In this document: positions 12,901-51,540 of the stretch, one piece after another
How positions within the stretch are numbered: the first letter of the stretch is position 1
Layout of the letters: every line of letters begins with the position of its first letter
From: Telopea speciosissima
Taxonomy: Eukaryota; Streptophyta; Magnoliopsida; Proteales; Proteaceae
Direction: 5' to 3'
DNA: 64,000 nucleotides
Assembly: GCF_018873765.1 (NCBI RefSeq)
Contig: NC_057919.1
Span: forward strand, 67,264,984 to 67,328,983
Position numbers and translations under genes: made by a program
The notes under the pieces: model-generated
The model's input: only the letters and a program-made list of their open reading frames with translations
What the model was told of the DNA's origin: nothing
Databases searched by the model: none

Positions 12901-15900
12901 CTTTTAAGTGTTCATGAGCTTCTTTGACAGTCTTCCCATCTTTTTTCTTCTTCCAGTTATGGCCATCTTTGCGGAAGTTCCTCAGCATTGTACGGTCAAA
13001 CAAAACAATTGTGCCACCTGAGTTTGGGAGAAAAAGACATTGAAGGGTAAAATCATTATCCGTCTCCATCTAATTACTGTTCGCAAAAGACATAAACCTT
13101 AAATTAATACATTAAAACAGATGTAAAGAAACCCACAAATATAAACCTTAAAGTAATACATTAAAAAAGAAGTAAAGAAACCCAAAAAAATAAACCTTAA
13201 ACTAATACATTAAAACAGAAGTAAAGAAACCCACAAATACATCTTATTTCACCTCAAAAAGTATTGGACTCAACTACACGATCATCCTCATCTCCAAATG
13301 CATAGATATATCAATGGATGCCTAGCATGTAAAAGATATGGATGTCGCAAAATATTGCATGACGAGAATCCCTTTTAGACTTCAATGTGCAAACCTCGCA
13401 AGTCCTGATCCATTATATTTCCTAGTTCATACAGACTACAGAAAAAGGCTGATACACACTTGACATGCCAAATGATTAAAAAACAAAAAGATGTTTACCA
13501 AACAATTAATGCAGGACAACTAGGGAGAAGATTAAGTTATAGGATAGGATTGGGTTTTGACACGATTGATGTCTGGCAGGATAACGAGTGCACAACATTT
13601 AATGCATAAGCTAAAGGGTAAGAACATTAAGATAAGAAAGGAAATAAAACATAGAAAGACAAATAACAACTCTCACTTCGATGAAGCTTGGAGTCTCATT
13701 GGAATTAAACAAGGCTTGATGAAGTATCAACACCAATGAATTTATGGAGTCTCACCAGACAAATCAGCAGAACAACCATCTGGCCTCTCAAAGCAGAAGA
13801 TACTTCACAGAGATAAAACTACAAATTCTACTAATACATCTTCTGGCTCATCAAATGTCAGTTAACTTAGAAAACCACCATTTTAGCATTTTCAAATAAC
13901 CTCTTGTTCTTTGCGTACAATTTACTTGTTCTTCAAAATTCCTTAATGGTTACAGTTCCCAAGATGAAAAGTTCTAATGAATCACTTCAACAAATATCTT
14001 ATGGCCCTTAGTATATGGCCTGGCAAGCAAATTATGGGCCTTGGCTTTGAGATAGATTTAACCTAGATCTGGTTATGGGCTTAGTCTTGCCTTGATCATC
14101 AATGTGGAGAGGAATGGTGGGCCCTGCACTCTGCTCATAGGCCTTCACTTACAGACCTTTGGGTCTATCACCATCATATTCTGTCAGCTTCATAAAATTC
14201 AGCTCAATTTGTTGAAAATATGATCTCTCTTGTGGAGGTGTACATCAAGTTGCTGGAATTAGCTATTGAGATCCAAATGGAATCAGAAATGGATTCCTTC
14301 GTATTTTGCAAAGAATTCCTGTACATGTCTTATAGAAAGTAGACACTAGTTGTTCATTAAGCACACTCTCAACCTTCTTGTAACCAGCATAAGCAATTGT
14401 GTCAGTTGAATAGCATGCCTGTCGGTCCCAATGTAAGCAAAACAAACTCCAACATTGAAAATTGGGCTGATTCAATTCCCAAGTGGAAGTTCCCACACTT
14501 AAATCTCCACAAAACTTCTACAGAATGTGGAAGGCATCTGGTCGTTCATGGATGAATCCTCTGGTAAGTTCCAGCTGGAAACTTTTTAAGCTTTAATTGA
14601 ACTATCACCATGTTGCCTTCTTTGAAACAAACAGAGGGAAACGAGAGGGGGGGGGGGGGGGGGATGAGCTTGTTCTTCATACCTCAGTATTCAAAGAAGG
14701 GTAAAGTACACGTACCCCCCTATAATGCACCCAATATTCCTCGTACCCCCCTAAGGTTCTGAAAAGTCCACGTACCACCCCTGCAAATTCCACGTACCAC
14801 CCCTACTTTACCCCCCTAATTCCAGATAAGTCCAAACCGTTAAGTGCTAAAAACTTGACCATTTTACCCTTTCTTCTATGTTTATAAATTTGAAAAGACC
14901 TAATTGCCCTGACCTATTTGTTCATAATATGAAAAGACCTTTTTGCCCTAACCTAATTTGATAAAACCCTTTTACCCCCACTATTTGTTCTTAAGAACCT
15001 AACCCAATCTAATTACCAAAATGCCCTTGTTAGGGCATAATTACCAAAATACCCTCATCTTCCCCAAATCTCATCTTCTCCAAAATCCATCTTCCATTTC
15101 TGAAACTTCTCTCAAAATCCACACAAACTCTCTCTCTCTCTCTCTCTCTCTCCTTCCGTCTTTCCCAATAATCTCTTAATTCTCTTTTTCTTGCTATCAT
15201 TCTCGTTTAGTAATCTCATTCTCTGTCTCATTCAATCATTCATTCCAATTATCTCAACCAAAACCGAACCCTAATAAAGAGGCATTGTCGAATTAGGAAA
15301 CCATTTTTCTGTTTTCTCTTGCTCTGCTTCTACGTTGTTTCCCTTCTCCGATTCCCTAACAATCCATCTTCTTTGTAAAAATTCGCTTCAGATTAAGAGT
15401 TTTCAGAAGAAACCCAAGAAAACCCTTTTTTTTTTTTCCTTCTCTTCCAATTCTTTCTGGGTCTGTCTCCGCCTGCGTGTGCAGGAGATTATTGTGTTTG
15501 TTTCGTCAGTGGCTGTTCCTTCGAACGTCCCTGCACCTACTTCACTTTATGCTGGAGACCTTCATCTTGATATCACCGATGGACAACTCTTTGATGCCTT
15601 CTCTGTCATCGATAACCTTGCATCTGTCAAGGTTTGAGAGAAGTTTCAGAAATGGAAGATGGATTTTGGGGAAGATGAGGGTATTTTGGTAATTATGCTT
15701 TAACAAGGGCATTTTGGTAATTAGATTGGGTTAGGTTCTTAAGAACAAATAGTAGGGGTAAAAAGGTCTTATCAAATTAGGTTAGGGCAAAAAGGTCTTT
15801 TCATATTATGAACAAATAGGTCAGGACAATTAGGTCTTTTCAAATTTATAAACATAGAAGAAAGGGTAACATGGTCAAGTTTTTAGCACTTAACGGCTAA

Positions 15901-18900
15901 ACTTAACGGTTTGGACTTATCTGGAATTAGGGGGGTAAAGTAGGGGTGGTACATGGCCTTTTCAGAAACTTAGGGGGGTACGAGGAATATTGGGTGCATT
16001 ATAGCGGGGTACGTGTACCTTACCCTTCAAAGAAACACTTCCTGCACCTAGTCATGAATTTGACTGTTATATGTTTGGTACATCAATCAGCATCTTAAAC
16101 TTTCCCGAGTTCTCACAAGTGATGGAATGAAATTGATTGGTTTCCTAAATTTTATCTTATTGGAAATCTTGTGTCATTATGTAGAGGTATTTATATCATT
16201 TGTGGCATGTGTGCATAGGTAATTTCTTGTACTTCTTGGGGGCATAATTTCTGTCCAATATATAAACCAACTTGAAAGGGTGAGGCTAATTCGTTTTTCT
16301 CCACAAAACCTAACCCAGAGTTTATCCATACAAAACAACTTGGTAACAGAGTATAAAAGATACAAGGAAGCTCGCAAAGAGGGCCAAGTAATGCAAAGTC
16401 TCCCAAAAGCATTCTCACACCTTCCAGCTGTATACTCATACAATGTAAGTGTAAGGCCAAGGTTTCAACTTTCAATACGTGAGCTATCAAGGTGATAGTG
16501 ATTATTGTAGAACTCCCGAGTATTTTTTAACAAATTTTGATCCTATCTTGTTTCTGGTATGCATTTTATCCCCAACTCCTCAGAAAACTCAGTTCAGAGT
16601 TAATCTATATGCAGATCTTCTTGCTGGGGAATTTATAAGGTTTACTAAAGATTGCAATATATCATGTGTCAATGTCACACTTTCTTTTTCTGTCATTCCA
16701 ACAATGGATTTGATCCTACAGAGGTAAAATCATTTACCCTTGGGATTATTATATAAACCAAAAAAAATTTTGGTATGTCAATCTGCTTAGACATTCATTT
16801 CAAGCAAAGGAAAAACAGGATATTTACATGCAAGGTTTTAAGTATCCTTCCATATCTGCCAATACTAACCGATATGTATCATATCTTTAAGGTACTGATA
16901 CGATATTTAAAAATTTTGGTACTAGTACATGTAAGAAACCTCATCCTTTATATATATTAGTAAGTGAATGCACTTGTCTTGTTGTATCTAGCGTATCTTG
17001 CGGCTCTCCGTTACAATACATCTCTTAAAATCACCCTCCCAATACAATACCTGATACCGATACTTTAAACCTTGTTTGCGTGGAATTATTATTGATCCAA
17101 ATATATTAAAAAATTCTTTAAAAATATCTTTTCACATACACCTGTAAAGGTACACTTTTACCTAGAGGTATGAGCAAAGATATGGCCCCACCCCTAAGGA
17201 TACTCACCAATAGACTCAATCACACTCATAGTTGTCAAGGTGTCGCCTAGGCAGGTGCCTTGGACGCCTTGCGTCTGGAACCCCCTCTAACGCCTTGGAT
17301 CGCCTAGATGCCGTGACAACTATGATCACACTTGCCAATCCCCACATTTTTACCATGATTTCCAACTTTGTGGCTTTGAAGTTTTAAAGATGAAAATGGC
17401 ATAAGAGTTACTACCGCTTATGTATTCAAACATGAAGATTTAAATAACATAGCAAAGAGGTTTTGATATTGTTAGAGTATGTATGTATGTCGGTTGGAGG
17501 TATATGGGTGTCCATAGACCTCCATACCATGGGAGTATATTTGTTTCTCTTTATTTCTCACACATTGGTTGCTTTCCTTTAACTATGTGTGGTCTCCAAG
17601 TATGAATAGGATCAGTGAAATAGCTAAGTTAGTAAGTTAGAGTTTGTCTTCTTTTTGGATTTTAATCTAATGTTGTATATATATATAAAGGACATACCCA
17701 GTGCACGAGGCTCCCGCTGCTGGGGGTCTGGGGAGGATCATAATGTACGCAGCCTTACCCTTGCTTTCACGGATAGGCTGTTTCCAGACTCGAACCCATG
17801 ACCACTTGGTCACAATGGAGCAATATAATTGATTCTTGGTTTTGAAAGTCTCAAGAGTTCCTTGTTAAAAGGAATGCAGCACCCTATGCTTCTTTCATTC
17901 TATATCTGACCCTAGTTGAATGAAAATGACGAGAAACTAGGGTCCATTCTTCTTAATCAGTACTACTATGGAGTGAAAGATTGATTGCAGACAAGAGGAT
18001 TGCAGATTGAAGCTTGCGGTCAGAATTCTGAGACATTCTTTTTCTCCCATAAATGATGTTAAATTAATTCACATCCAGCCAGTGGATGATTCTTAATTTT
18101 GAAGATAATTTGGCCCATCTTGGAGCACCACTCAATCAGATTTTTCAGCAGATCAACCTTGCTGATCAAGGTTAATTAAGGTTTGCTTTCACTCCGGGCG
18201 TTACCCTGTTTTTGGGGTGTTTCTCAGATTATTTGAATCTGAAATTAATCCCTACTTATCCATCAGATTCTCTTGATGTTTTATGACATTAATACTCATG
18301 TTATAGTGCCTTCGATCTTGTTTTTGGAGGATTTTTGGGCTGCTGGTGATTGGTGATTTGCCTACAAAATCTCAGCTTAAGGTACCCTGTTTTGAGGGTA
18401 TTTTTTAATATACTCTTGCTTGCTGAAATACTTATCTGTTCTCAGTCAGAATCTGAGATCCTAGGGGTTCATTCCCTAGCTGTTGAGGGATATTCGATCC
18501 CCATTGGATGGTTTTCTGGCACCACCAACCAGTGGTATTATTTTATCTATACTTTGGGATGTTTCAAGGATTTTTTTGTGCATGATGGCTGATTCTAAAT
18601 TCACCACTGACCATGTTAATATTCAAATCACCACCATTAAACTGAAAGGTATTTCCAATTATCTGTTGTGGGCTCAAGCCATCAAAGTTTATATTAATGC
18701 CAAAGGGAAGTTGCAGTATCTAGTCTGATCCTCCCTCTGCTGATTCCAAAGATCCTACCACTGTTAAAGCCTATGAAGATTGGATGCGTGAGAATGATAC
18801 TCTACTTATATGGTTGTGGAACAGCATGGAACCTACTATTGCTGCTAATGCCATGTTTCACACCACTGCAAAAGGAGTTTGGAACGACCTAAAGCAAACT

Positions 18901-21900
18901 TTCTCTTAAGAGAAGAATATCTCTCGCATTTATGATTTATATGATAAAATTGTTAATCTCAAGCAGGGGGACTGATCTCTCAACGAATACTTCAGTATAT
19001 TTCAAGGTTTGACGAAGAACTCAACATCCATCAGGCATCAGCCTCTCACCACTAATCTGGAACAGTTGAAGCTTCAACGGGAAGAATTTCATGTGGCCAA
19101 GTTTATGGCAAGGTAAAATTCAAATTATCAGTCTGTTAAGAGTCAATTGTTGGCTGGAGAAAAGATACTCTCTCTTAATGAATCTTTTGCACGACTTCAG
19201 CATATTGTTACCCCTTCCCGCCATGATGCCTCTCCAAAAGATAGTTCTGCATTTGTTGCTGACCGTGGGCACAACTATAATTTCTCTGGGAGGGCATGGT
19301 TCATAGGGAGGATGTGGTCATGGATGTCGCAGACTCGCAGTATAGGTGGATGTTGAATTATGTACACCAGAATACCATGGGGGTATTCTGGTCATTTTAC
19401 AGTTGTATTTTTTACTTCTTTGTTCCTCCTAGTTAAGTCGGCTGTACTAGGGGTATTTTTGGTTATTCATATGTAATCTCTCATATTATAAATACAATGC
19501 TTGTTTGATCATATTGATCATTCAAGCAATTACTCTCTAATTCAGGTCTGCTAACAGTGGACAACAGACTGACCGACCAATCAGACAGTGTTCTTTTTGT
19601 GGCAAGTTAGATCATACCATTGATACCTGCTGGGTGAAACATGGTAAACCAGACTGGGTCCTCAATCAACCAATACTGTTACGTTTGATGATCATGTCTT
19701 CTGGCGACACCAATATTGCATCCTCATCTAGCGTTCCGACATCTGGTTCAGGACCTCGTGATGATTACAGTCAAATTCTTAAACTTCTGCAGAACCTTCA
19801 ACCTTCCACTGGTGTGTCTTCCTCCACTGCCACCTTTTCTTATACAAGTACATCCGCCTTACTCTCATCTACGTCATCTGCTCTCTGAATAATTGATTCA
19901 GGGGCCTCCACTGATATGATTGGTAAGTCTCACATTCTTTCTTCACCTCAGAAGATTGCACATCCTTCTCAGGTCATTCTTGACAATGGCTCCTCTATGA
20001 ATATGGTTGCTTTTGGGTCTGGGTTCTCTACCGTCTTTTCCATCATTAACCTGTGTTCTTAATGTCCCTGACTTACCATTAAATCTTATGTCTGTTAGTC
20101 AATTAATCAAATCTTTAAACTGCTCAGCCACATTTTACCCTATCTGTTGTGTTTTTCAGGATCTCCAGACAGGAAGACGATTGGTGATGGAATCTACTAC
20201 TTTGACAACTCCACTCCTATAGCTGCTCTTGTTACCTCTCCTACGACTTCTCCACTTCATTTGCATTACCGGTTGAGACATCTTTCTCTTTCCAAGCTTC
20301 AACAGATGGTTCCCAGCTGCAGAAAAATATCTCGTATTGGTATGAAGCATGTGAGCTTGGAAAGCATCACCATACTTCATTCCCTCCTCATGATGTCCCT
20401 CGTAGTCTTTCTCTGTTTTCCTTGGTTCACTCTGATATCTGGGGTCCATGTCATGCCAAGAGTCAAATAGGTTTTGTTTATTTTGTGACATTTGTAGACG
20501 ATTATTCCCGTACAACTTAGCTATTTATGCTAAAGGATCGTACTGAATTTTTATTTGTGTTTACACAACTTCATTCTGAAATTAAGATTCAGTTGGTGTG
20601 TCTATTAAGATCTTTCGTTCACATAATGCTTTAGAATATACTCAACGTGAAAAACTGCATTTTGTTATGCACATAGAATGATACATCAAACTAGTTTTTC
20701 TTATACTCCTCAACAGAATGGTGTAGCTGAACGGAAAAACAGGCATTTGCTCGAAATAGCTCGTTCCTTGATGTTTTATATGAATGTTCCAAAATATTTG
20801 TTAAGTGACGCGATTATTACTGCTTGTTATTTGATATATCGTATCCCACCAGTTGTCCTTGATAATCACTCATTGTTCTCTACTGTTTTTCCTGATGTTC
20901 CTCTGTTTAGTTTGCCCCCGCGGGTGTGTCTGGTGGTGTTTGTTTTGTTCATAACCCTTGCCATGGACTTGATAAATTATCCCCGTGGGCAACCAAGTGT
21001 GTGTTTCTTGGCTATGCTCGCACTCAAAAGGGCTATAGATATTATGATCTCACTACTCGTCAATATTTTGTTAGTGCGGATACGACCTTCTTTGAATCTA
21101 CACCCTACGTTTCTACTGAGTGCAGCCAAATGGATGATGATATCTTACCACTTCTGGTCGTTGTATCCTTCACTGAATCTTCTTCTAAGTTCTAACAGTC
21201 CTCCCACCAAGCAGTTGCAGATATACAAGTGTCGTCCCAAGTCCACAACCCATGCTGCTCCTTCGCAACAGCCCTCTACTTCATTAGACACCCTGTTTGG
21301 GGATTCTCCATTTCCTTACTTGCCAATTACTCTTCACAAAGGTACCCATTCTCGCAAAGCTCCAACTACTTACACTATTGAGAATTATGTTTTTATATCT
21401 CACTTTCCATCTTCCTTACATAATCTTGCCTTGTCCATATCTACTAACTCCATTCCTAAGACTTATCAAGAGGGTTTATCTTATCCTGGGTGGAAAGTGG
21501 CTATGGACACAGAGATGAATACTCTATTGGATTGTTGGGCTTGGACTCTTAATGAATTACCTCCAATAAAGGAGCTTGTGAGGTCTTGTTGGTTGTACTA
21601 GAAAGTTCCCTAGTCTATTATAAATTGAGTGGGCTGTGGACATAATGTCACAAGCAATTATTCTCTAACTCTTCTCTCTATTTCGTCAGTATTAACATAT
21701 GTACTTACTGATAAAGCCTCTACACTACATGGTCATTTATATTTTTTTTGATGAGTCTAATATGTTAATGCTATTCAAGCAAACACAAAAAATGATAAAA
21801 GACAGCAAGGATAATAAAGTACACTTGCCTGCTACTATCAGGTCCACTTTTTGTGTTCCTGGCACCTGAAACAAGGCGCCAAGAGTCACAAAAGAGAATG

Positions 21901-23038
21901 GGCCTGACTGAAGTGCCGGTCTGGATCTATGCATGTCAACAACATGGTTCACAATTTTATTTCTTGTTTTTTTTATTGTCTAAACATATACAGAAAGGGA
22001 GGAGGAACTTACACGTTACCGATTTACAACATAAACATGCATCTTACTTGAAAATAAATTGTCATAAAATGGTACACCTAGTAGGATGCAAAAGAAAAAG
22101 AATGAAGCAAGTAATTACTTGGAGGCAAGTTCACTGGCTTGACACGGATACTGAAATAGTTGTGATTAAAGAGTATTGCATGAATTTCATTTGGCCGCAG
22201 CCACCTTGTTGTGGCTTCCTTCATTATAGTTCCAACATCCAAATCTGCTCAATAAATGAAAGAAACAAAATAATTAATTAAGTAACATCATTTGAGATAA
22301 TGCATAGACAAATCTTCTGGTCCAGGGGAAGACTAAGAAAGAAATGGCTTATGTTCTCAAAATGAATACAGCTGGACAGTTGTGGTGAGATACCAAAAGA
22401 ATCAAGTGAAAGTATTTCGGCAGTAAATACCGGAGGCAAAAGATATAGAAACAACGACAACAACTCAGAACTCAGCCTTATCCCAACTAAATGGGGTCGG
22501 CAGTTGGCTACATGGATCCTTGCCCTCCAATCAGCACTATTCAATGTCATACTTGATACAAGGCCTAAGCTATGCATGTTTTTTCTCACCACTTCTCCTA
22601 TGGTCATTTTAGGCCTGCCCTAATTCTTTAGTTAGAATAATGTTTTTTTTTTTTTTAATGCAACTAAACCCTTCAATTAACAACTCGAAAGGTTCATTGG
22701 AGTTGCTATGCATAAATAAGGATCTTTAGGGTAGAGCACTCAATGGACTTTAGTATTCAGAGTTTTAAGGGGGCAAAGATCCACAGGCTCTAAACATGGA
22801 TTGACGAAGGACGCTAAATGACGCCTCTGTTTGAGAATTAAAAATTCCAAACAGAATATACTTGTACAGATATAATTTTTGAAACAGGAGGACAAGAAGG
22901 AAATCGATATTAGCCTAACAGCAGTTGAAGTTAGACAATAAAGTAAGAATTGAAGAATCAGGTTTTGAACTTACCCTCCATTGTATGAAACCCATGAATC
23001 TCACATCCAGTAAGCCGACCAGTAGCACTACTCTCCAT
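3983..23038 (-). CDS. CAMTA: Calmodulin-binding transcription activator (CAMTA5/6-like), 13 exons
   Basis: Ca2+/calmodulin-responsive nuclear transcription factor. CAMTAs bind CGCG-type promoter elements through the CG-1 domain. Coding exons on the minus strand: 23038-22975, 22244-22119, 13017-12902, 12568-12480, 12332-12287, 12194-12083, 11384-11247, 11161-11103, 9894-9511, 8020-7332, 6109-5563, 4411-4103, 4012-3983. All have GT-AG borders and matching phases; the total is 2709 nt, or 902 residues, usual for the family. Domains: CG-1 about 22-147 (TRWLRPNEIHAI, LFDRTMLRNFRKDGHNWKKK, HIVLVHYRE); TIG from about 357 (EVSPAWAFS); ankyrin about 560-660 (GWTALHWAAYYGRKEMVAVL); IQ motifs about 720-830 (RIQSAFR, RIQHAFR, IKIQAAFRG); calmodulin-binding helix (ILEKAVLRWRQKKKGFRGLQ). 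Start: the ATG before GRLTGCEIHGFHTME, as in CAMTA5/6. The 3' end is a 30-nt exon (LEYEGLLDP). The subgroup assignment is from memory of the family. Intron 2 (13018-22118) is transposon-rich. Confidence 0.95.
4490..5340. repeat. Roughly 90-bp direct repeat flanking the LINE relic
   Basis: About 4490-4595 and 5232-5335 share the order CACACTAAC, TGTAGCAAA, CAAGTAG, GGAA, TGCATATGACT-like and GGTTGGTATGA. The similarity is clear but diverged. The LINE relic sits between the copies. At about 90 bp the repeat is too long for an ordinary LINE target duplication; a local duplication with insertion between the copies is the simpler reading. Confidence 0.55.
4597..5230 (-). mobile_element. L1-type LINE relic (3' end of ORF2) in CAMTA intron 12
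   Basis: The minus strand reads as the zinc-binding C-terminal region of plant LINE reverse transcriptases. About 5130-5100 gives FCWNGIEDTDHLVFSHPF, matching the family's C-x-x-x-ED-x-x-HLFF-x-CPF pattern. Further on come LVFGAAISHIWMERNLRRW and PFLIPQGTGTLL, with stops and frame changes between. A T run at 4597-4604 on the plus strand would be the poly(A) tail of a minus-strand LINE. It is dead and 5'-truncated. Confidence 0.7.
6877..7045 (+). mobile_element. Au-type SINE, full length with 16-bp target duplication
   Basis: A tRNA-derived SINE in CAMTA intron 10. It has an A-box-like TGGTGCAGCGGTAAAGG and a B-box GGTTCGAGTCT, followed by the Au-type body (GGTAAGGCTGTGTACATTA, CCTCCCCAGACCCCGCAGTG, GGGAGCCTCGTGCGC) and a T-rich tail. 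It is bounded by perfect 16-bp copies of AGGATTGAATAATTGA at 6861-6876 and 7046-7061. The orientation is opposite to CAMTA. Other copies lie at 11645, 17689, 33309, 33504, 33806 and 57800. Confidence 0.92.
8021..9510. other. CAMTA intron 9, 1.5 kb without recognised features
   Basis: AT-rich intron between the glutamine/serine-rich exon (9894-9511) and the TIG/ankyrin exon (8020-7332). Splice borders read AAG|GTCTAT and TGCAG|GTCATA on the minus strand. No coding sequence or transposon boundary was recognised inside. Confidence 0.6.
10047..10133. mobile_element. Short foldback MITE of the CATAGTTGTCA family (diverged)
   Basis: The segment begins CATCATTGTCAAGGCGTCGCC and ends CATGACAACTATG. 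It shares ends and the inner CCCCCTCYAACGCCTT text with the well-bounded copy at 17227-17324. It lies in CAMTA intron 8. No clean target duplication is visible here. Confidence 0.6.
11479..11959. mobile_element. hAT-type non-autonomous element with 8-bp target duplication
   Basis: The left end TAAGGGTGTCAA and the right end TTGACACCCCTA are inverted repeats. The element is flanked by perfect copies of TATGATAA (11471-11478 and 11960-11967), an 8-bp duplication typical of hAT transposons. The inside is made of GGGCTGGG/GGCCGGGC-like low-complexity text with no transposase. A deleted Au SINE (about 11645-11743) is nested inside it. It lies in CAMTA intron 6. Confidence 0.85.
11645..11743 (+). 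mobile_element. Internally deleted Au SINE nested in the hAT element
   Basis: The 5' half of the Au SINE is present: TTTGGTGCAACGGTCAAGG, GACCAAGTGGTCATGGGTTC and GAGTCTTGAAACAGCC. It is joined directly to the distal TGCCTTTTTTT tail. The middle of the element (the GGTAAGGCTG to GGGAGCC part) is missing compared with the copy at 6877-7045. Confidence 0.8.
13092..13238. repeat. Three tandem copies of a 49-bp unit in CAMTA intron 2
   Basis: Copies at 13092-13140, 13141-13189 and 13190-13238 each start ATAAACCTTAAA, contain TAATACATTAAAA and end GTAAAGAAACCCA. They differ at only a few positions, so the expansion is fairly recent. The array lies 75 bp upstream of CAMTA exon 3 in the direction of transcription. 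Confidence 0.92.
14699..16025. mobile_element. Pack-MULE: Mutator-like element carrying a gene fragment
   Basis: The element is 1327 bp, with long terminal inverted repeats at 14699-15116 and 15633-16025 (about 400 bp each). Both outer ends start GGGTAARGTACACGTACC. The arms match almost throughout, with two small indels: a 21-bp partial duplication in the left arm and an extra piece near the Ns of the TTAACGG motif in the right arm. A perfect 9-bp target duplication TTCAAAGAA lies at 14690-14698 and 16026-16034. Long inverted repeats plus a 9-bp duplication mark a Mutator-like element. There is no transposase. The 516-bp centre holds the start of a poly(A)-binding-protein gene, so it meets the definition of a Pack-MULE. 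It lies in CAMTA intron 2. Confidence 0.93.
15117..15632 (+). pseudogene. Captured 5' fragment of a poly(A)-binding protein gene
   Basis: The cargo of the Pack-MULE. It begins with a CT microsatellite and UTR-like DNA (15129-15430) and passes a possible splice acceptor (GTGTGCAG, about 15483). It then encodes VPSNVPAPTSLYAGDLHLDI followed by TDGQLFDAFSVIDNLASVKV, the linker and RNP2-containing start of RRM1 of plant PABPs. The coding text stops where the right inverted repeat begins, so only about 40 residues of RRM1 remain. The expected ATG is not clear: a GTG stands at 15511 in a plausible position. The fragment runs antisense to CAMTA. It could be transcribed, but no PABP function remains. 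Confidence 0.88.
16080..17226. other. CAMTA intron 2 stretch with weak retrotransposon traces
   Basis: No coding sequence was recognised. TTGGTAACAGAG at about 16340 resembles a plant copia primer-binding site with one change, but no LTR could be delimited. About 16835-17065 contains CGATATGTATC/GATACGATATT-type text related to the CATGGTT repeat family. Confidence 0.4.
17227..17324. mobile_element. 98-bp hAT-like MITE with perfect 8-bp target duplication
   Basis: The terminal inverted repeats are CATAGTTGTCA and TGACAACTATG, and the inside is nearly palindromic (GTCGCCTAGGC, GGATCGCCTAGATGCC). Perfect ATCACACT copies flank it at 17219-17226 and 17325-17332. The same ends occur at 10047-10133 and, on a larger element, at 28996-29917, so this is a family. 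Confidence 0.92.
17467..17680 (+). mobile_element. Probable copia LTR fragment upstream of the copia relic
   Basis: GTTAGAGTATG, GGTTGGAGGTATATGG, GACCTCCATACCATGGG and TATTTGTTTCTC resemble the copia 3' LTR start at 32562 (TGTAAGAGTATAG, GGTTGGAGGTCCATGG). It is therefore a likely 5' LTR piece of the element at 18585-21601 or of a sister copy. It is interrupted by an Au SINE at about 17689-17825, and its right end was not found. Confidence 0.5.
17689..17825 (-). mobile_element. Au SINE, minus orientation, 5'-truncated
   Basis: This is the reverse complement of the Au SINE body: CAGTGCACGAGGCTCCCGC, CAGCCTTACCC, then AGGCTGTTTCCAGACTCGAA and CCATGACCACTTGGTCACAA. It ends at GGAGCAA, so the A-box half is lost. 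It lies in CAMTA intron 2 between the LTR-like fragment and the copia body. Confidence 0.85.
18585..21601 (+). mobile_element. Ty1/copia retrotransposon relic in CAMTA intron 2
   Basis: Polyprotein domains occur in copia order but are broken by stops and shifts. Gag runs from 18585 (MADSKFTTDHVNIQ) with at least four in-frame stops before 19120. A CCHC knuckle CSFCGKLDHTIDTC lies near 19590. The protease core IDSGAST is near 19890, with a stop just before it. The GAG-pre-integrase region is at about 20170-20340. Integrase is at 20345-20920, with HSDIWGP, VDDYSR and NGVAERKNRHLLE marking the catalytic D, D and E. The integrase C-terminal part (FLGYARTQKGYRYYDLTTRQ) follows at about 21005. The frame ends at 21601 just inside the reverse transcriptase start (WTLNELPPIKE), so RT and RNase H are missing. 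The insertion is dead and is oriented against CAMTA. Confidence 0.92.
19354..19543 (+). mobile_element. Possible solo LTR inserted in the copia gag
   Basis: The gag frame is interrupted between the Gly/Arg-rich segment and SANSGQQTDRP by about 190 bp of AT-rich DNA with inverted ends TGAATTA and TAATTCA and a TATA-like ATTATAAATACA at about 19488. The 3' tail (CAAGCAATTACTCTCTAA) resembles 21648-21665 beyond the copia body. A nested solo LTR is the best reading. No clean 5-bp duplication was seen. Confidence 0.4.
21602..22118. other. End of CAMTA intron 2 beyond the copia relic
   Basis: AT-rich intronic DNA between the truncated copia body and CAMTA exon 2. CAAGCAATTATTCTCTAA at about 21648 resembles the tail of the LTR-like insert at 19354-19543. 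It may be a residual U5 piece of the 3' LTR. Confidence 0.4.
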
Positions 23039-44113: not shown

Positions 44114-44573
44114 GGAAATAGTGAGTCATTGAATCCTTGAGAGGGCGACAGGTTTCTACCCTCATGGCTGTGGGCCCTATGGCCTACAATGCCACTAAGG
44201 CTAAAATTGGAAAATTAACCCCAAAACATGACCTCTTTTTCCACCACCGCCCCATTGGCCCCATTGGCCCCATTGGCCCATCCTCTTATTCCCATCCAAA
44301 AATTCTGAGTGGCCGTCCGTAAGCGTAAAGTCGCAAGATCGTCCACAATCTTCTTCTCTACTCTCAACTTTTAGTGTTTCTCTCTCACTCACTCACTCTT
44401 ACATACTCAGATTCTTTCTTTCTCTAGTTGCGACTTTCATGTCTCTTTAACAGCTTTAAGAGCGACGTGGAGATCCAATCACCTAAATCTTTCTCTCACG
44501 GCATCGCCACCGTTCAAACCTCCATTCTCTATCTCTTTCCTTCTCCTCAGATATGTGTATGTGTCTCTGTTGT

Positions 44574-44584
44574 ATCTATATATC
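44574..44584 (+). promoter_or_regulatory. Candidate TATA box of the xylosidase gene
   Basis: TCTATATATCC lies about 75 bp before the ATG at 44652. Transcription would start near 44605 and leave a leader of about 45 bases. Only the position and sequence support this. Confidence 0.4.
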
Positions 44585-44651
44585 CTCCTCATCTTCTAAA
44601 CTCACACAAACACACAAATTCAAGCCAAACAACTCTTCTTTATCTCAAAAA

Positions 44652-47600
44652 ATGAAAACGCCTTTCTCCTCCTCTTCCTCCGTCATCTATCTTCTCTTCT
44701 TTCCGGTGATTCTTCTCTGTTTTTCACCGTACACCGGAGAGGCAAGTCCTTCCTTCGCTTGCGATCCAAAAAATGCAAATACGGCGAGCCTACCTTTCTG
44801 CCAAATGTCTCTATCGATACCGGACAGGGTGAATGATCTCATCGGACGGCTGACATTGCAGGAGAAGATCGGGCTCCTCGTTGACAGTGCCGCACCGGTG
44901 CCGAGGCTTGGTATCAGTGGGTACGAGTGGTGGTCGGAGGCGCTTCACGGGGTCGCAGGAAGCCCCGGTGTTAAATTTGGTGGGAGCTTCCCTGGGGCCA
45001 CCAGTTTCCCACAAGTCATCACCACCGCTGCCTCCTTCAATGCCTCTTTGTGGAAACAAATCGGACAGGTGAGATTATTTACATTTCTTTTCTTCTTTCC
45101 CTTTTCCATTTCCATAGTTTAGTGCAACTCTTTCTACCAAAAATATAAAAAAAAAAAGTGTTTAGTGCAATTCTTTCCCTTCCAAAGAGGAAAGGAAATA
45201 TTTGCATTTTCTTTAAAATGTATTTCAAAGACTTTGTTAGAGATGCTTTGCTATCAAAAGGTCTTTTGGGTTCAAAGTTTTCTTGTTCACACCTCCCTTC
45301 CCCCTCATAGAATAGGATACTAGACGATTAGAACCTATAGAAAAAAAATATAATTTAACAAAATAAAATACGAAAATAGATCGCTACACTATTCTTTCCC
45401 CCAAAAAATATTTGTTCATTTTTCTTGCAATCAAACACTAAAATTAATATTTGATTTTTTTAGAAAAATATTTGCATTTTCCTTGCAATCAAATCGAACC
45501 CCAAAGATTATTGATCACCGATTATGGATAACATGCGGTTGTTTGTTCAATTACGCTCTTAGTTTAGTCTTGGCACCACCTAACCCTAAAGTAATGACAT
45601 CTAATTATTGTGGCAGTTCAGGTGGATCCCAAGATCTTTTGTTTACTTGTCAACTTTCGTCCAATCCAAATTTGCGAGAAAAACAACTTAGTAAAAAACA
45701 CAGGACTACCAAGGGACATAGTGGGGTCATTGACACACACATGAGGGTATATATGCCTACAACTGAGAGAATACATATTTTTTGATAGGAAAATATAAAT
45801 GAGAGAATACATTGAATTTCGTTTTAAAAAAAATAGTTATTATGTTGGATATTCATATAAGAGAAGAGAACGCTAATCAATTGTGTAGCCCTTGCACCAA
45901 TGCTGGGCTTTATAAGAAAGTGAATAACTCATGTGTCTGGGCAAAAAGACACACAATTGATCTTTGTTATTTTTCCCTTTATATAATTTTTCAAACATTC
46001 TCTAGGCAGAATTTTCATATCATCCATTCACATTGTAAAAACATATAATCTTGCGTAATCAATATTTTATTTTCCTTCTTTTTTTTAAATACCCTTCGTC
46101 ACAATTTAAATTTAATGGTGATATGAAGAGACATTTATGAGACCAAGTAAAGACATGTGTCGTCACCCAACGGTACATAAAAGGGGAATAATGAAGTTTC
46201 GTCTTCGGAGTGGAGAGTGCGGTCGTCATGAGAATCTGAGATTTCAGTTGCTCCATTATCTAACAAGTAATTGTGATTGGTTAGGCCGTTCACTGAAAAG
46301 TTTCGTGGGGCCCAAAAAGAATACTTTATCTTTATTTACTGTATTTAATATTAGGATTTATTAGGATCGTAGAATAGCTATGATCGTTCTACGATCCTAT
46401 GTGATATTAGTTGAAGTAAGTAATGGTGATGGTGATGGTACAGGTGGTATCAAATGAAGCGAGGGCGATGTACAACGGAGGAATGGCCGGTCTGAATTAC
46501 TGGAGCCCAAACGTAAATATATTCAGGGATCCCAGGTGGGGCCGGGGCCAGGAAACTCCCGGTGAAGATCCGGTTTTAGCCTCTAAGTACGCAGTCAACT
46601 ACGTCAAAGGACTGCAGGAGCCATACGGCACAGACGGTAGCAGGTTGAAGGTTGCAGCCTGCTGTAAACACTACACCGCCTACGACGTCGACAACTGGAA
46701 TGGCGTAGATCGCTACCACTTCAACGCCCTAGTATATTTCTTTCTCTCTCCTTATCACTGATAATCAGTAAAAATCCAGACTTGATCACCAAATTTATAA
46801 CCTAATACCTTCTGTGCAGGTAAGCAAGCAAGATTTGAAAGATACGTTCGATGTACCATTCAAGGCGTGTGTGTCGGAAGGGAAAGTAGCGAGTGTGATG
46901 TGTTCTTACAATCAGGTTAATGGAATTCCTACCTGCGCCGACCCAAACCTCCTTCGCAACACCATTCGTGGTCGATGGAACCTTAACGGGTACATCGTTT
47001 CAGATTGCAACTCTGTTGGGGTTTTTTACGATACCCAACACTACACCGCAACACCTGAAGACGCAGTTGCGGCCACTATTAAAGCAGGCGAGTCTTCCTT
47101 CACTCTTAAATAACATAAATCGTCTTTGATGATGTCCATCTTGGTAATTTCAATTCTATTTTTTACAGGTCTAGATTTAGAATGTGGAATATTCCTGTCT
47201 TCCCACGCGGAGCAAGCCGTGAGGACAGGGAAGATGAGCGAGTTGGATGTGAATGGAGCTTTGGTTAATACCCTAACCGTGCAGATGAGGTTAGGGATGT
47301 ACGATGGAGACCCATCGGAGCAGCCATTTGGAAAGCTGGGTCCAATGGATGTTTGCTCACCGGACCACCAACAACTAGCCCTCGAGGCAGCTCGACAAGG
47401 CATTGTCCTCTTGAAGAATATTGGGCCATCGCTACCCCTATCTCCCCGTCGCCACCGAACGATCGCTGTCATCGGGCCTAACTCCGACGTCACGGTTACC
47501 ATGATAGGGAACTACGCCGGTGTAGCATGTGGATACACTACTCCACTACAGGGGATCGGGAGATACGCCACGACCAACCACCAAATGGGATGTAGCGACG

Positions 47601-50600
47601 TGGCTTGCGGCGGCGACCAGATGTTTGGTGCTGCCCAGGAAGCTGCGCGTGAAGCAGACGCGACGGTGCTGGTGATGGGGTTAGATCAGTCCATCGAGGC
47701 TGAGTTCAAGGACAGGGATGGACTACTCTTACCGGGACGCCAACAGGAACTGGTCTCTAGTGTGGCCATGGCCTCCAAGGGCCCCACAGTGCTGGTGTTG
47801 ATGAGTGGTGGGCCTGTTGACGTGTCTTTCGCTAAAGATGATCCGCGTATCTCTGCCATCCTTTGGGTGGGGTACCCTGGCCAAGCCGGAGGAACGGCCA
47901 TTGCTGATGTGTTGTTCGGAACAACAAACCCAGGTAAGTTGCCACTTACTTAATAATTTAACTAATTTGGTTACCGTACTAATCATGGGGTCATAAGTCA
48001 AATTTATACTTATTAATAACGACAGAGAAAGAGACCTAACCCCAATAAAACATGTAATGACACTGAGCCTATAGTATCGAAATGTCATACTCTCTAGTTT
48101 ACCTAAAAAAAAACAGAAATGTCACCCTCTCCCCTCCGTTGTACGGACTCCTGGATTTGGATCCTCCTACGCTACCCGTGCGGCCAGCGTCAGCCTCACA
48201 CAAGCAGGGCGTGAACCCCACGTAGACCCATCCGAGCAAAAGTTGGGTTCATACGAGAATGGGTTCCAGCCATCCGGATGGATCCCACCATGTGAATGCC
48301 ATCTAGATGGCTGAAACCCAATGGGAATCCACCTATCCATGGTTTTAATGCACGGTAGTATTGGTAACATGTAAAACTGATACGATATCAATGTAGTATC
48401 GGCCTGGATCCACTGTATTGAACAAAATTATATTTAAATCTCTTTAAAAAACGAATTGTATTTGCTATCAATATGGTATTGATATCGCTGATTAGCAAAA
48501 TTGATATGTTTTGTTCGATACGAGCGATTCAATATCGATACTTAGAACCATGCACCTACCCGGACAGAGTACCGGAGCCCTTCACTGCCTCCAAAGTCAC
48601 GATCGACGGCGATAAAGACAGGGAATCGTTTCACTGTCTTGCCAGTTGGAAGGACTGGACTTTCTCTTGCGATCAGGTGAATCTCGTGATAGAAGCAATC
48701 GTTTTCCAAGTGACAAGGTACTTGGAGAGGACCCCACTGCCATCTTAACTAGTGATCAAATTTCAGCCGTATCAAGCCAAAAAAAGTTGATGAGAAAAGC
48801 AATATGAAGTTTCATGGAAGGATGTGGAGCCACCTTGCATGTGTGGTGAAACTGTCTAAGAATGCCATTCATAGTTGGTGGTACAGTAATGTTTGGCATT
48901 TTTTCAAGTTTTCATCATTTCATATTCCTTTTTGATTGCTTCTTGTGCTTGATCATGAAATTTATTATATGAAAATGCAACGTATTGGGTACCGTATCTG
49001 CCAATGGCCGATACAAGCGATCTATATCGGTACCAATAAAAATATCGGTCTTGGCTTATCGGACGATATGTATGAGACCGATAAATAGAACCCTGATGAG
49101 ATGGATTGGTGTCTAAAGAACTACTCATAGTTGCTATTAGTAAGAGTATTATGCTAACTCAAGGCACAACCCCTAGTACCCATAACACATTCTATGTTGT
49201 GTTTGGTATGCATTCTATATATATTCTCCAAGAAATCATTTCAGTCGTAACCCTAATTTTAAAAAGTTTATTATGCGATTTCAAATGTTTTCAAAATATA
49301 GCTATATAGTTCATTCTCTCTAATCATGATTTAGAGTTGAGATCTTCAAGGAGTGGGAGTGCCCAGGACCCACAATATATTGAGGTTGAGAAGATGAAAT
49401 GACAAATATGCATGAAATAAATAGTGAGTCCAAACATTCAAAGATCATGGGTTGAAGATGTAGGCTGCGTTTGGTATGATTTTTTGGAATGCATTATGAC
49501 CAAGAATGCATACTAAACACAACCTTAAGCCTTTAAGCTCAACACCCCCATAGCCCAAACTCCATTTAGAATCCCCAATCAAGAGGTTGACAAATCATGT
49601 TATAGCTTTACATATACTACTATGGACCATGTTTCCCTTCGATGAAGACGAAACATCTAAAGTCGTGACATTTGACTTTTAGATTAAACTAGGGAAGGGT
49701 GTTTTCGACTTCGTACAATAGAGGGCGAGAATTAATGATGAAATTCACATGTTCAAGAATCCAATCATGAGATTACATCAGTATGGATGAAGAGATCTTG
49801 AGCGTAAGGAAAACTTAATCAAGAGGAACTTTCCTATGTTATCATTTGATTAAGTTTTCCTTCACCCATGGAGAAGGAAGAATCTCTTCACCATTGATGA
49901 TGTGACCATGTGATTGGATTCTTGTGTCATCATTAATTCTCACCCCCTATTGTACGGGGTCAAAAATACCCTTCCCTAAGCTAATCATAGGGTCAAATAT
50001 TCATGGTGAGAAGATTTTCTTTTCACTGTAGGTGAAGAGAAACTTGGTCCATTACCAATTTACCTCTTAAGGGGCTGTTTGTGTGAGGTAAGGTATAGAA
50101 CCCCTCTCCACCCTTCAGAGTGTAACAGTAAGGTCCTTTCCGGGCCCTAACATAGAGATGTAGGTTGGGCTGGCCTGGATTCAGGAAATGATAATTTTTT
50201 AACAAAATTGAGATGCTGATCAAGTTGTGAATTGGTTCAAAATTGAATCCAAATTTAATTGGACCTGCACTTCTTCACCTAGCTATGAGATTAACTGTGA
50301 TGGATAGCAACCACCAACGGAATGAAAATATGGTAGTTCCAATATGGGTTCTTGACATTATTTTCAGGGCGGAGCGTAGGGGCCACATATGTGCAGCAAT
50401 CTATGAGAGCGCATGCTGGCATCTGGAGAGATGGGGTTTCCCCCCTTTATTGGGGTGGGGCGGTCATTTAGCCCCCCCCCCTCCCCATTGGGTATGGGCG
50501 TGGCCACCGTCTCCCCCACAGAGAACTTTTCTCCTGTTTTCGATGTTGAGTTTTCCTTCACCGATGTTGAAAGTCCATCTTAGGGATTGGTAGTGTCAGA

Positions 50601-51540
50601 TGGCCAAATGGAGGGTAGTTTTGGCCTTGTCAATAGGGGTGAGAGTACAATGATGACGCATGAATCCAATCACAAACATGGTTCTAGGTATCAGCCCATA
50701 CTTATTGATAGATATTGCAGGTATCCAATACCGATACAATATGGATCAGATATATCGGCCAAAAAATGATCCTATGGCCCAATTTAGCCTGATTCCTATT
50801 GATATCGGTATCGACGGGCGACCTATAATCATGTTTATATGTTCAAATTACCAGTGGAGAAGGAATTCTTCCTTGGCAACGGTTGGAGGAAAACAGAATA
50901 TTATGATTAACTGATATGGTACATATATACATCCTCAGGAGGCAAGCTTCCGATGACGTGGTATCCGCAGGACTACGTGGCTAATCTGCCGATGACAACC
51001 ATGGCCATGCGGTCCGACCCAGCCAATGGTTACCCAGGAAGGACCTATAGGTTCTACAAAGGCCCAGTTGTGTATCCCTTTGGGTATGGAATGAGTTACA
51101 CCCATTTTGTTCACACCATTGCCAATGCCCCATCAGTGGTCTCAGTTTTCTTCGGCGGTGGACATCATACTACCAATACCACAATCTCAGGGAAGTCAGT
51201 AAGACTCACACACGCCAAATGTGATGGGCTTTCGGTTGGTGTAGATGTCGACGTGAGAAACGCGGGCTCGAAGGATGGAACCCATACCTTACTTGTATAT
51301 TCGGCGCCGCCGGCCGGTCAATGGACACCTAACAAACAGTTGGTGGCATTTGAGAAGGTTCATGTCCCTGCTGGGTCTCAACAGAGGGTCAATATAAACA
51401 TACATGTGTGCAAGTATCTAAGTGTTGTGGGCAGGAATGGACTTAGAAGAATTCCCATAGGTGAACATAACCTACACATTGGTGATCTTAGTCATCCCAT
51501 CTCTCTCCAAGCTCTGCCTCTAGGGGAGATCAAAACATAG
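44652..51540 (+). CDS. BXL1: Beta-D-xylosidase / alpha-L-arabinofuranosidase (GH3, BXL1-like)
   Basis: Secreted cell-wall hydrolase removing terminal xylose and/or arabinose from xylans and pectic arabinans. Exons 44652-45068, 46444-46731, 46820-47087, 47169-47933 and 50939-51540 join in phase: 2340 nt, 779 residues, the usual BXL length. An N-terminal hydrophobic stretch ([14 protein letters not shown]) is a signal peptide. The GH3 N-domain has [37 protein letters not shown] and [10 protein letters not shown]; the nucleophile is Asp297 in [11 protein letters not shown]. The second domain has [14 protein letters not shown] and [11 protein letters not shown]. The fibronectin-like C-domain runs from [19 protein letters not shown] to [10 protein letters not shown]. 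Intron 3 uses a GC donor (GCAG|GCGAGT); the other introns are GT-AG. Intron 4 is 3.0 kb. A Mutator-like element lies just upstream. The choice of BXL1 over its close paralogues rests on remembered similarity. Confidence 0.95.
45069..46443. other. Xylosidase intron 1, 1.4 kb, no recognised feature
   Basis: AT-rich intron with borders CAG|GTGAGA and TACAG|GTGGTA. Short frames inside have no recognised domain. Confidence 0.7.
47934..50938. other. Xylosidase intron 4, 3.0 kb, repeat-expanded
   Basis: Borders are CCAG|GTAAGT and CTCAG|GAGGCA, splitting a Gly codon of [10 protein letters not shown]. It holds the MITE at 48338-48552 and further CATGGTT-family text at about 48965-49095 and 50679-50836. 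It also has a C/G-rich block at about 50440-50520 and a 60-codon open stretch at about 48560-48748 ([20 protein letters not shown]) of unknown origin. Confidence 0.75.
48338..48552 (+). mobile_element. CATGGTT-family hAT-like MITE, 215 bp
   Basis: The ends CATGGTTTTAA and TTAGAACCATG are inverted repeats with one mismatch. The flanks CACCTATC (48330-48337) and CACCTACC (48553-48560) are an 8-bp duplication with one difference. The inside matches the copy at 43060-43300 in the opposite orientation. It has no coding capacity. Confidence 0.85.

Follow-up and report, generated by a model that had tools for sequence, protein, structure and literature searches.

Features of the locus

The window, that is, the whole 64,000-nucleotide stretch of Telopea speciosissima DNA that was analysed, carries on its minus strand CAMTA exons at about 22.2 kb and 13.0 kb that flank a 9,101-bp intron and join in frame. 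Together with the next exon the two flanking exons give a CG-1 domain (E 1.1e-39), and the host gene is a CAMTA transcription-factor gene. Within this intron lies an element spanning 14699-16025, or 14690-16034 with its flanking duplications (Table 1). The longest open frame in its core has 119 codons, the core matches a poly(A)-binding-protein (PABP) donor throughout, and there is no transposase inside.

Table 1. Coordinates of the CAMTA intron, the inserted element and its cargo in the window.
Feature	Position	Strand	Remark
Host CAMTA intron, 9,101 bp	13018..22118	-	GT..AG; between two CG-1 domain exons
Left 9-bp target site duplication TTCAAAGAA	14690..14698	.	present once in the empty intron of the CAMTA paralogue
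Left terminal inverted repeat, 418 bp	14699..15116	+	repeat-family sequence
Captured PABP fragment	15114..15637	+	includes bases common with the arms at both junctions; donor C2:10610593-10611142
119-codon open frame	15278..15637	+	holds the RRM1 start; no Met; closed by a TGA where the right arm begins
Position of the donor start codon	15509..15511	+	GTG here; elsewhere (donor, C7 sister, two further PABP copies) ATG
Right terminal inverted repeat, 393 bp	15633..16025	-	
Right 9-bp target site duplication TTCAAAGAA	16026..16034	.	

The original prediction described a Pack-MULE in a CAMTA intron, with terminal inverted repeats of roughly 400 bp, a perfect 9-bp duplication and a PABP cargo running antisense to CAMTA. 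The location agrees with the CG-1 domain across the flanking exons, and the orientation is as described, the cargo being on the plus strand and CAMTA on the minus strand. In pairwise alignment the two arms agree in 369 of 380 aligned columns (97%) and differ in 11; a further 51 gap columns fall mostly in three larger indels resembling tandem duplications. The terminal motif GGGTAMRGTACACGTACCYC is present in the window at the two element ends only, against a chance expectation of 0.01 when up to three mismatches are allowed. The perfect duplication is likewise there on both sides. Taken alone, the flanking copies of the 9-mer are little proof of an insertion, because TTCAAAGAA has five matches in the window where 2.3 are expected.

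Two other features of the surroundings were noted by eye. Ty1/copia-like fragments with interrupted frames in the open reading frame lists occupy 18500-21600 on the plus strand of the same intron, and a gene resembling a glycoside hydrolase family 3 beta-xylosidase lies at 44487-51540, also on the plus strand.

The empty site

A genome search with the left flank gave two candidates, both scored, and one of them is a second CAMTA locus on C7 with 72% identity. Its intron, near position 53535401, aligns to 13190-14647 and then to 16026-16143 of the window with only about 30 bp between. The junction reads CAGTATTCAAAGAAATA; it has one copy of the 9-mer, and the element is absent. The single 9-mer in an empty paralogous intron demonstrates the insertion directly, and it is this site, rather than the flanking copies, that is decisive. 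It also answers the possibility, named beforehand as one that would overturn the original prediction, that an ungapped allele or relative carries both arms as unique ancestral sequence: the paralogous intron has neither arm. With the C7 intron empty, the insertion would most simply be later than the duplication that produced the two CAMTA genes. A run of 17 G at 14647-14663, 26 bases before the left duplication, is also missing from the paralogous intron.

The arms belong to a large repeat family

The arms of the element are owned by a large repeat family. A genome search with the arm gave 1868 candidates, of which the best 40 were scored, with at least 43 matches including the element itself. 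The family set was built from 30 loci and two larger stretches, which gave 23 two-armed rows and 20 distinct elements after L013, L016 and L029 were left out as second views of the same element. Both arm matches reach the terminus in 14 distinct elements. By our own tally nine of these, ours and eight others, have exact 9-bp duplications in register; among the remaining five, the duplication is 8 bp long in two, two more show nothing beyond homopolymer-like matches out of register, and the fifth lacks a duplication. One member (L007 1102-1911; C1:8254502-8255311) consists of same-family arms without a spacer, an 810-bp near-palindrome flanked by the 9-bp duplication AAAAAATAA. When the best 150 of 828 MULE-domain gene candidates were compared by eye with the at least 43 arm matches, none lay within 5 kb among the matches listed; MULE-domain genes are thus plentiful in the genome, but no listed one could be linked to this arm family.

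The inverted-repeat anatomy, taken in isolation, would also fit a local inverted duplication around a PABP pseudogene with no transposon involved. Against this the arms are repeated genome-wide, other copies of the family have exact duplications, and the empty site in the paralogous intron already refutes it, so that its probability is negligible. The repetition of the arms likewise disposes of a second objection foreseen for the original prediction, a PABP paralogue with the same flanking arms that are not repeated in the genome.

Several interiors are common to two elements. Besides the PABP core, the origin of the cargo was sought genome-wide for the EBF-like part of the sister element described below and for L009, L028 and L010; the remaining interiors were compared among themselves. 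An O-fucosyltransferase-like 5' end is another cargo of the family. The L009 cargo is an internal exon, presumably of a CGI-58-like gene, in which a Pfam match is absent. The L010 cargo has matches of 96-97% on both C4 and C8 and was left out of the traced count. Three of the four traced cargos come from gene 5' ends, in a set that was chosen by hand and in which one gene has a tentative name.

The cargo and its donor

The core (15117-15632, 516 bp) is homologous to PABP; it has 5' sequence that resembles a leader and continues through part of exon 1 as far as the RRM1 start. All five candidates from a genome search with the core were scored: they are the core itself, the donor, the sister on C7 and two other PABP copies. 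The donor, C2:10610593-10611142 on the minus strand, is 550 bp long including the junction bases and 94% identical to the core. A PABP gene begins here, in which four stretches match RRMs and the two halves of an MLLE domain are both present. No arm matches were present in the 9.9 kb searched around it; about 550 bp from the 5' end of the gene were copied, not moved. The other two copies were rejected as donors and kept as outgroups, C7:8730536 having 87% and C3:32720592 80% identity. The copy at C7:8730536 (L038 3608-4620, reverse strand) is partial, with a break inside exon 1; its match covers part of the cargo only, and arms of the family are missing.

Comparison of the core frame with PDB sequences by phmmer pointed to RRM1 of PABP, with whole-sequence E values of 2.8e-6 and 7.5e-6 that sum several RRMs, the best single stretches having only 0.17 and 0.0035. 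Pfam searches with the cargo peptide of 42-44 amino acids found no RRM, one giving a sub-threshold chance match only and the other no hit. Because of the 94% identical genomic donor on C2, the assignment to PABP can be regarded as firm and settled. Thus the predicted cargo and the donor locus that was to be sought were both found, and the gene text does end at the inverted repeat, with 4 bp (TTTG) common to gene and arm.

Relative to the donor, about 20 bp of a CT-rich stretch are missing from the copy in the element. Divergence between cargo and donor is K = 0.039 over the 395 common sites. A value of 0.071 over all 523 aligned cargo sites was set aside, since the CT-rich stretch aligns poorly.

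The locus thus has long inverted repeats, a duplication of about 9 bp with an empty site, a gene fragment from another part of the genome, arms of a repeated mobile family and a non-autonomous interior. We are highly confident that the best explanation is a Pack-MULE by anatomy, a non-autonomous, probably Mutator-like element of a large family with host DNA copied into its interior. This reading is upheld by the donor gene and the sister copy as well as by the repeat family and the empty site.

A sister element and the number of captures

The sister copy that the original prediction proposed to look for is C7:4316421-4318151, which has same-family arms and an 8-bp flanking duplication. It carries the last 391 bp of the PABP core, with a 3' (right) junction identical to the base. 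To the left of its PABP part are 499 bp, and the 5' side of a C2 F-box/LRR gene, which we take to be EBF1/2-like, matches 493 of them at 97% identity. On the reverse strand this fragment has an ATG-led MPALVNYSG followed by GTAAGT, resembling an exon end, and the PABP and EBF-like gene starts stand head to head. A second EBF-like 5' end occurs beside a partial same-family arm (L044 / L053; C9:21936049-21936489) and is possibly a further Pack-MULE with the same EBF-like gene.

The cargo of the sister is 96% like ours, whereas the arms are only about 87% alike. In windows of 60 columns the right arms are 92-97% alike in the inner 240 columns, drop to 71-75% in the 120 columns that follow and return to 88-90% at the end; adjoining the junction, 42 of 44 columns are identical. 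This pattern suggests that the outer arms were exchanged between elements after the capture.

At the 395 common cargo sites nine differences are private to our copy, six are found only in the sister and six separate both from the gene. Two of these last six are derived in the copies, two are derived in the gene and two could not be polarised. Together with the identical 3' junction, the site patterns favour a single capture of PABP over two. Sites 15486 and 15544 group our copy with the sister and, when polarised, are derived in both, and the identity of the right arms next to the junction is close to that of the cargo. Independent capture of the fragment by the two elements at a preferred microhomology is unlikely, though it has several observations on its side: the arm divergence of the sister far exceeds its cargo divergence, the left ends of the captures differ, the microhomology at the right junction could recur, and at site 15567, one of the six differences found only in the sister, our copy agrees with the donor gene, in conflict with a single capture. 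A single capture followed by exchange of arms would be the preferred history.

Capture junctions

Microhomology of 3-7 bp was seen by eye at all four junctions examined, which were chosen because their donors are known. In our element it is AAATCCA (7 bp) between arm and PABP and TTTG between PABP and arm; in the sister it is ATC (3 bp) between arm and EBF and ATTC (4 bp) between EBF and PABP. In a simulation with the arm and PABP sequence and random breakpoints the probability was 0.0017 for at least 7 bp, 0.028 for at least 4 bp and 0.074 for at least 3 bp, so that the 3-bp junction is unremarkable. The microhomology favours template switching, which would be the best-supported mechanism of capture. 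An ancestral element under repair or replication would have switched template to the PABP gene at AAATCCA on the left and returned at TTTG at the right end; the finished product would have been moved by a transposase acting in trans. The Pack-MULE then inserted into the CAMTA intron with duplication of 9 bp, and the copy on C7 may later have switched template again, acquiring the 5' end of the EBF-like gene.

Similarity of the arms and the age of the insertion

The similarity of the arms had been taken to argue for a fairly recent insertion, and that part of the original prediction is unsupported. In 18 of the 19 elements compared, one arm or both resemble an arm of some other element more closely than the partner within the element. 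The loci in this comparison were retrieved by their likeness to our left arm, gaps did not count, and several of the margins are below 1%. Our left arm matches an arm of an unlinked element at 98.8% (327 sites) and its own partner at 96.6% (380 sites); dating from the alignment of arm to arm was rejected for this reason. For our right arm the own partner is marginally closest (0.966 against 0.965). Because nearly all elements have an arm closer to a foreign arm than to its partner, arm similarity is no reliable clock here, and equally it is no proof of an old insertion.

Effect on the host genes

The effect on CAMTA and PABP is most likely none or weak, with neutral persistence in a large intron as the default; no sign that the element is put to use came to light, and it would leave with the spliced intron. 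Translation of the cargo could not begin at the ancestral codon. A useful coding chimera becomes less likely, since GTG replaces the donor ATG and the frame is free of ATG codons. A scan for bacterial-type promoters and terminators was uninformative for a plant.

The long inverted repeats probably attract silencing. Minus-strand RNA, the CAMTA sense, is predicted to fold with the arms paired in a long stem (minimum free energy -773.5 kcal/mol, a raw value with no shuffle control). An intron hairpin of this kind, with a loop antisense to PABP and 94% identical to the donor, might give rise to small or antisense RNA that lowers the expression of PABP or CAMTA. Such regulation is improbable: the PABP part would form the loop and not the stem, and splicing is probably normal, the flanking CAMTA exons joining in frame. 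It is similarly improbable that the arm family builds chimeric gene 5' ends stepwise through repeated template switching, with one PABP capture later re-cut and placed head to head with an EBF-like 5' end and with outer arms swapped from element to element, and that the hairpin of the CAMTA copy displays antisense PABP leader in the CAMTA pre-mRNA and could tune the PABP donor.

Relation to known elements and significance

Among gene-fragment carriers the element is an ordinary member of a class already described. In rice, tomato, maize, Arabidopsis and sacred lotus, Pack-MULEs likewise combine long inverted repeats with a fragment of a host gene from elsewhere, whereas the arm family and the donor genes are different here. 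Pack-MULEs have a duplication of 9 bp, and some of them are chimeric, combining pieces of two or more genes. A literature search joining Proteaceae with Pack-MULE gave only the sacred lotus paper, and nothing is concluded beyond the literature searched. The tomato PM-ZIBP is a comparable Pack-MULE family with several copies of one capture (PMC3310237). A preference for GC-rich sequence is reported for Pack-MULEs of rice and maize (PMC3310237) and of Oryza (PMC4858842), whereas the GC content of the present cargo, 0.405, is not far above the 0.385 of the window.

Pack-TIRs of animals resemble the present case in the microhomology at their junctions, for which template switching is proposed, and in multicopy captures far from the donor, according to Tan et al. 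2021 (PMC8277862). In 190 of the 281 cases there, one breakpoint or both had microhomology, and more than half of the unique cases lay near the donor (PMC8277862). Here, in contrast, the host is a plant and donor (C2) and element (C4) are on different contigs.

The locus is an unusually complete single case, with the donor, the captured copy, a sister bearing a further capture, the junctions of both elements and the empty site in one assembly. It is a warning against dating such elements by the identity of their arms. Gene 5' ends have been captured in an AT-rich plant genome, and a strong GC bias is absent in the PABP cargo. The few traced cargos, three of four from gene 5' ends though hand-chosen, make a 5' bias testable across the arm family.
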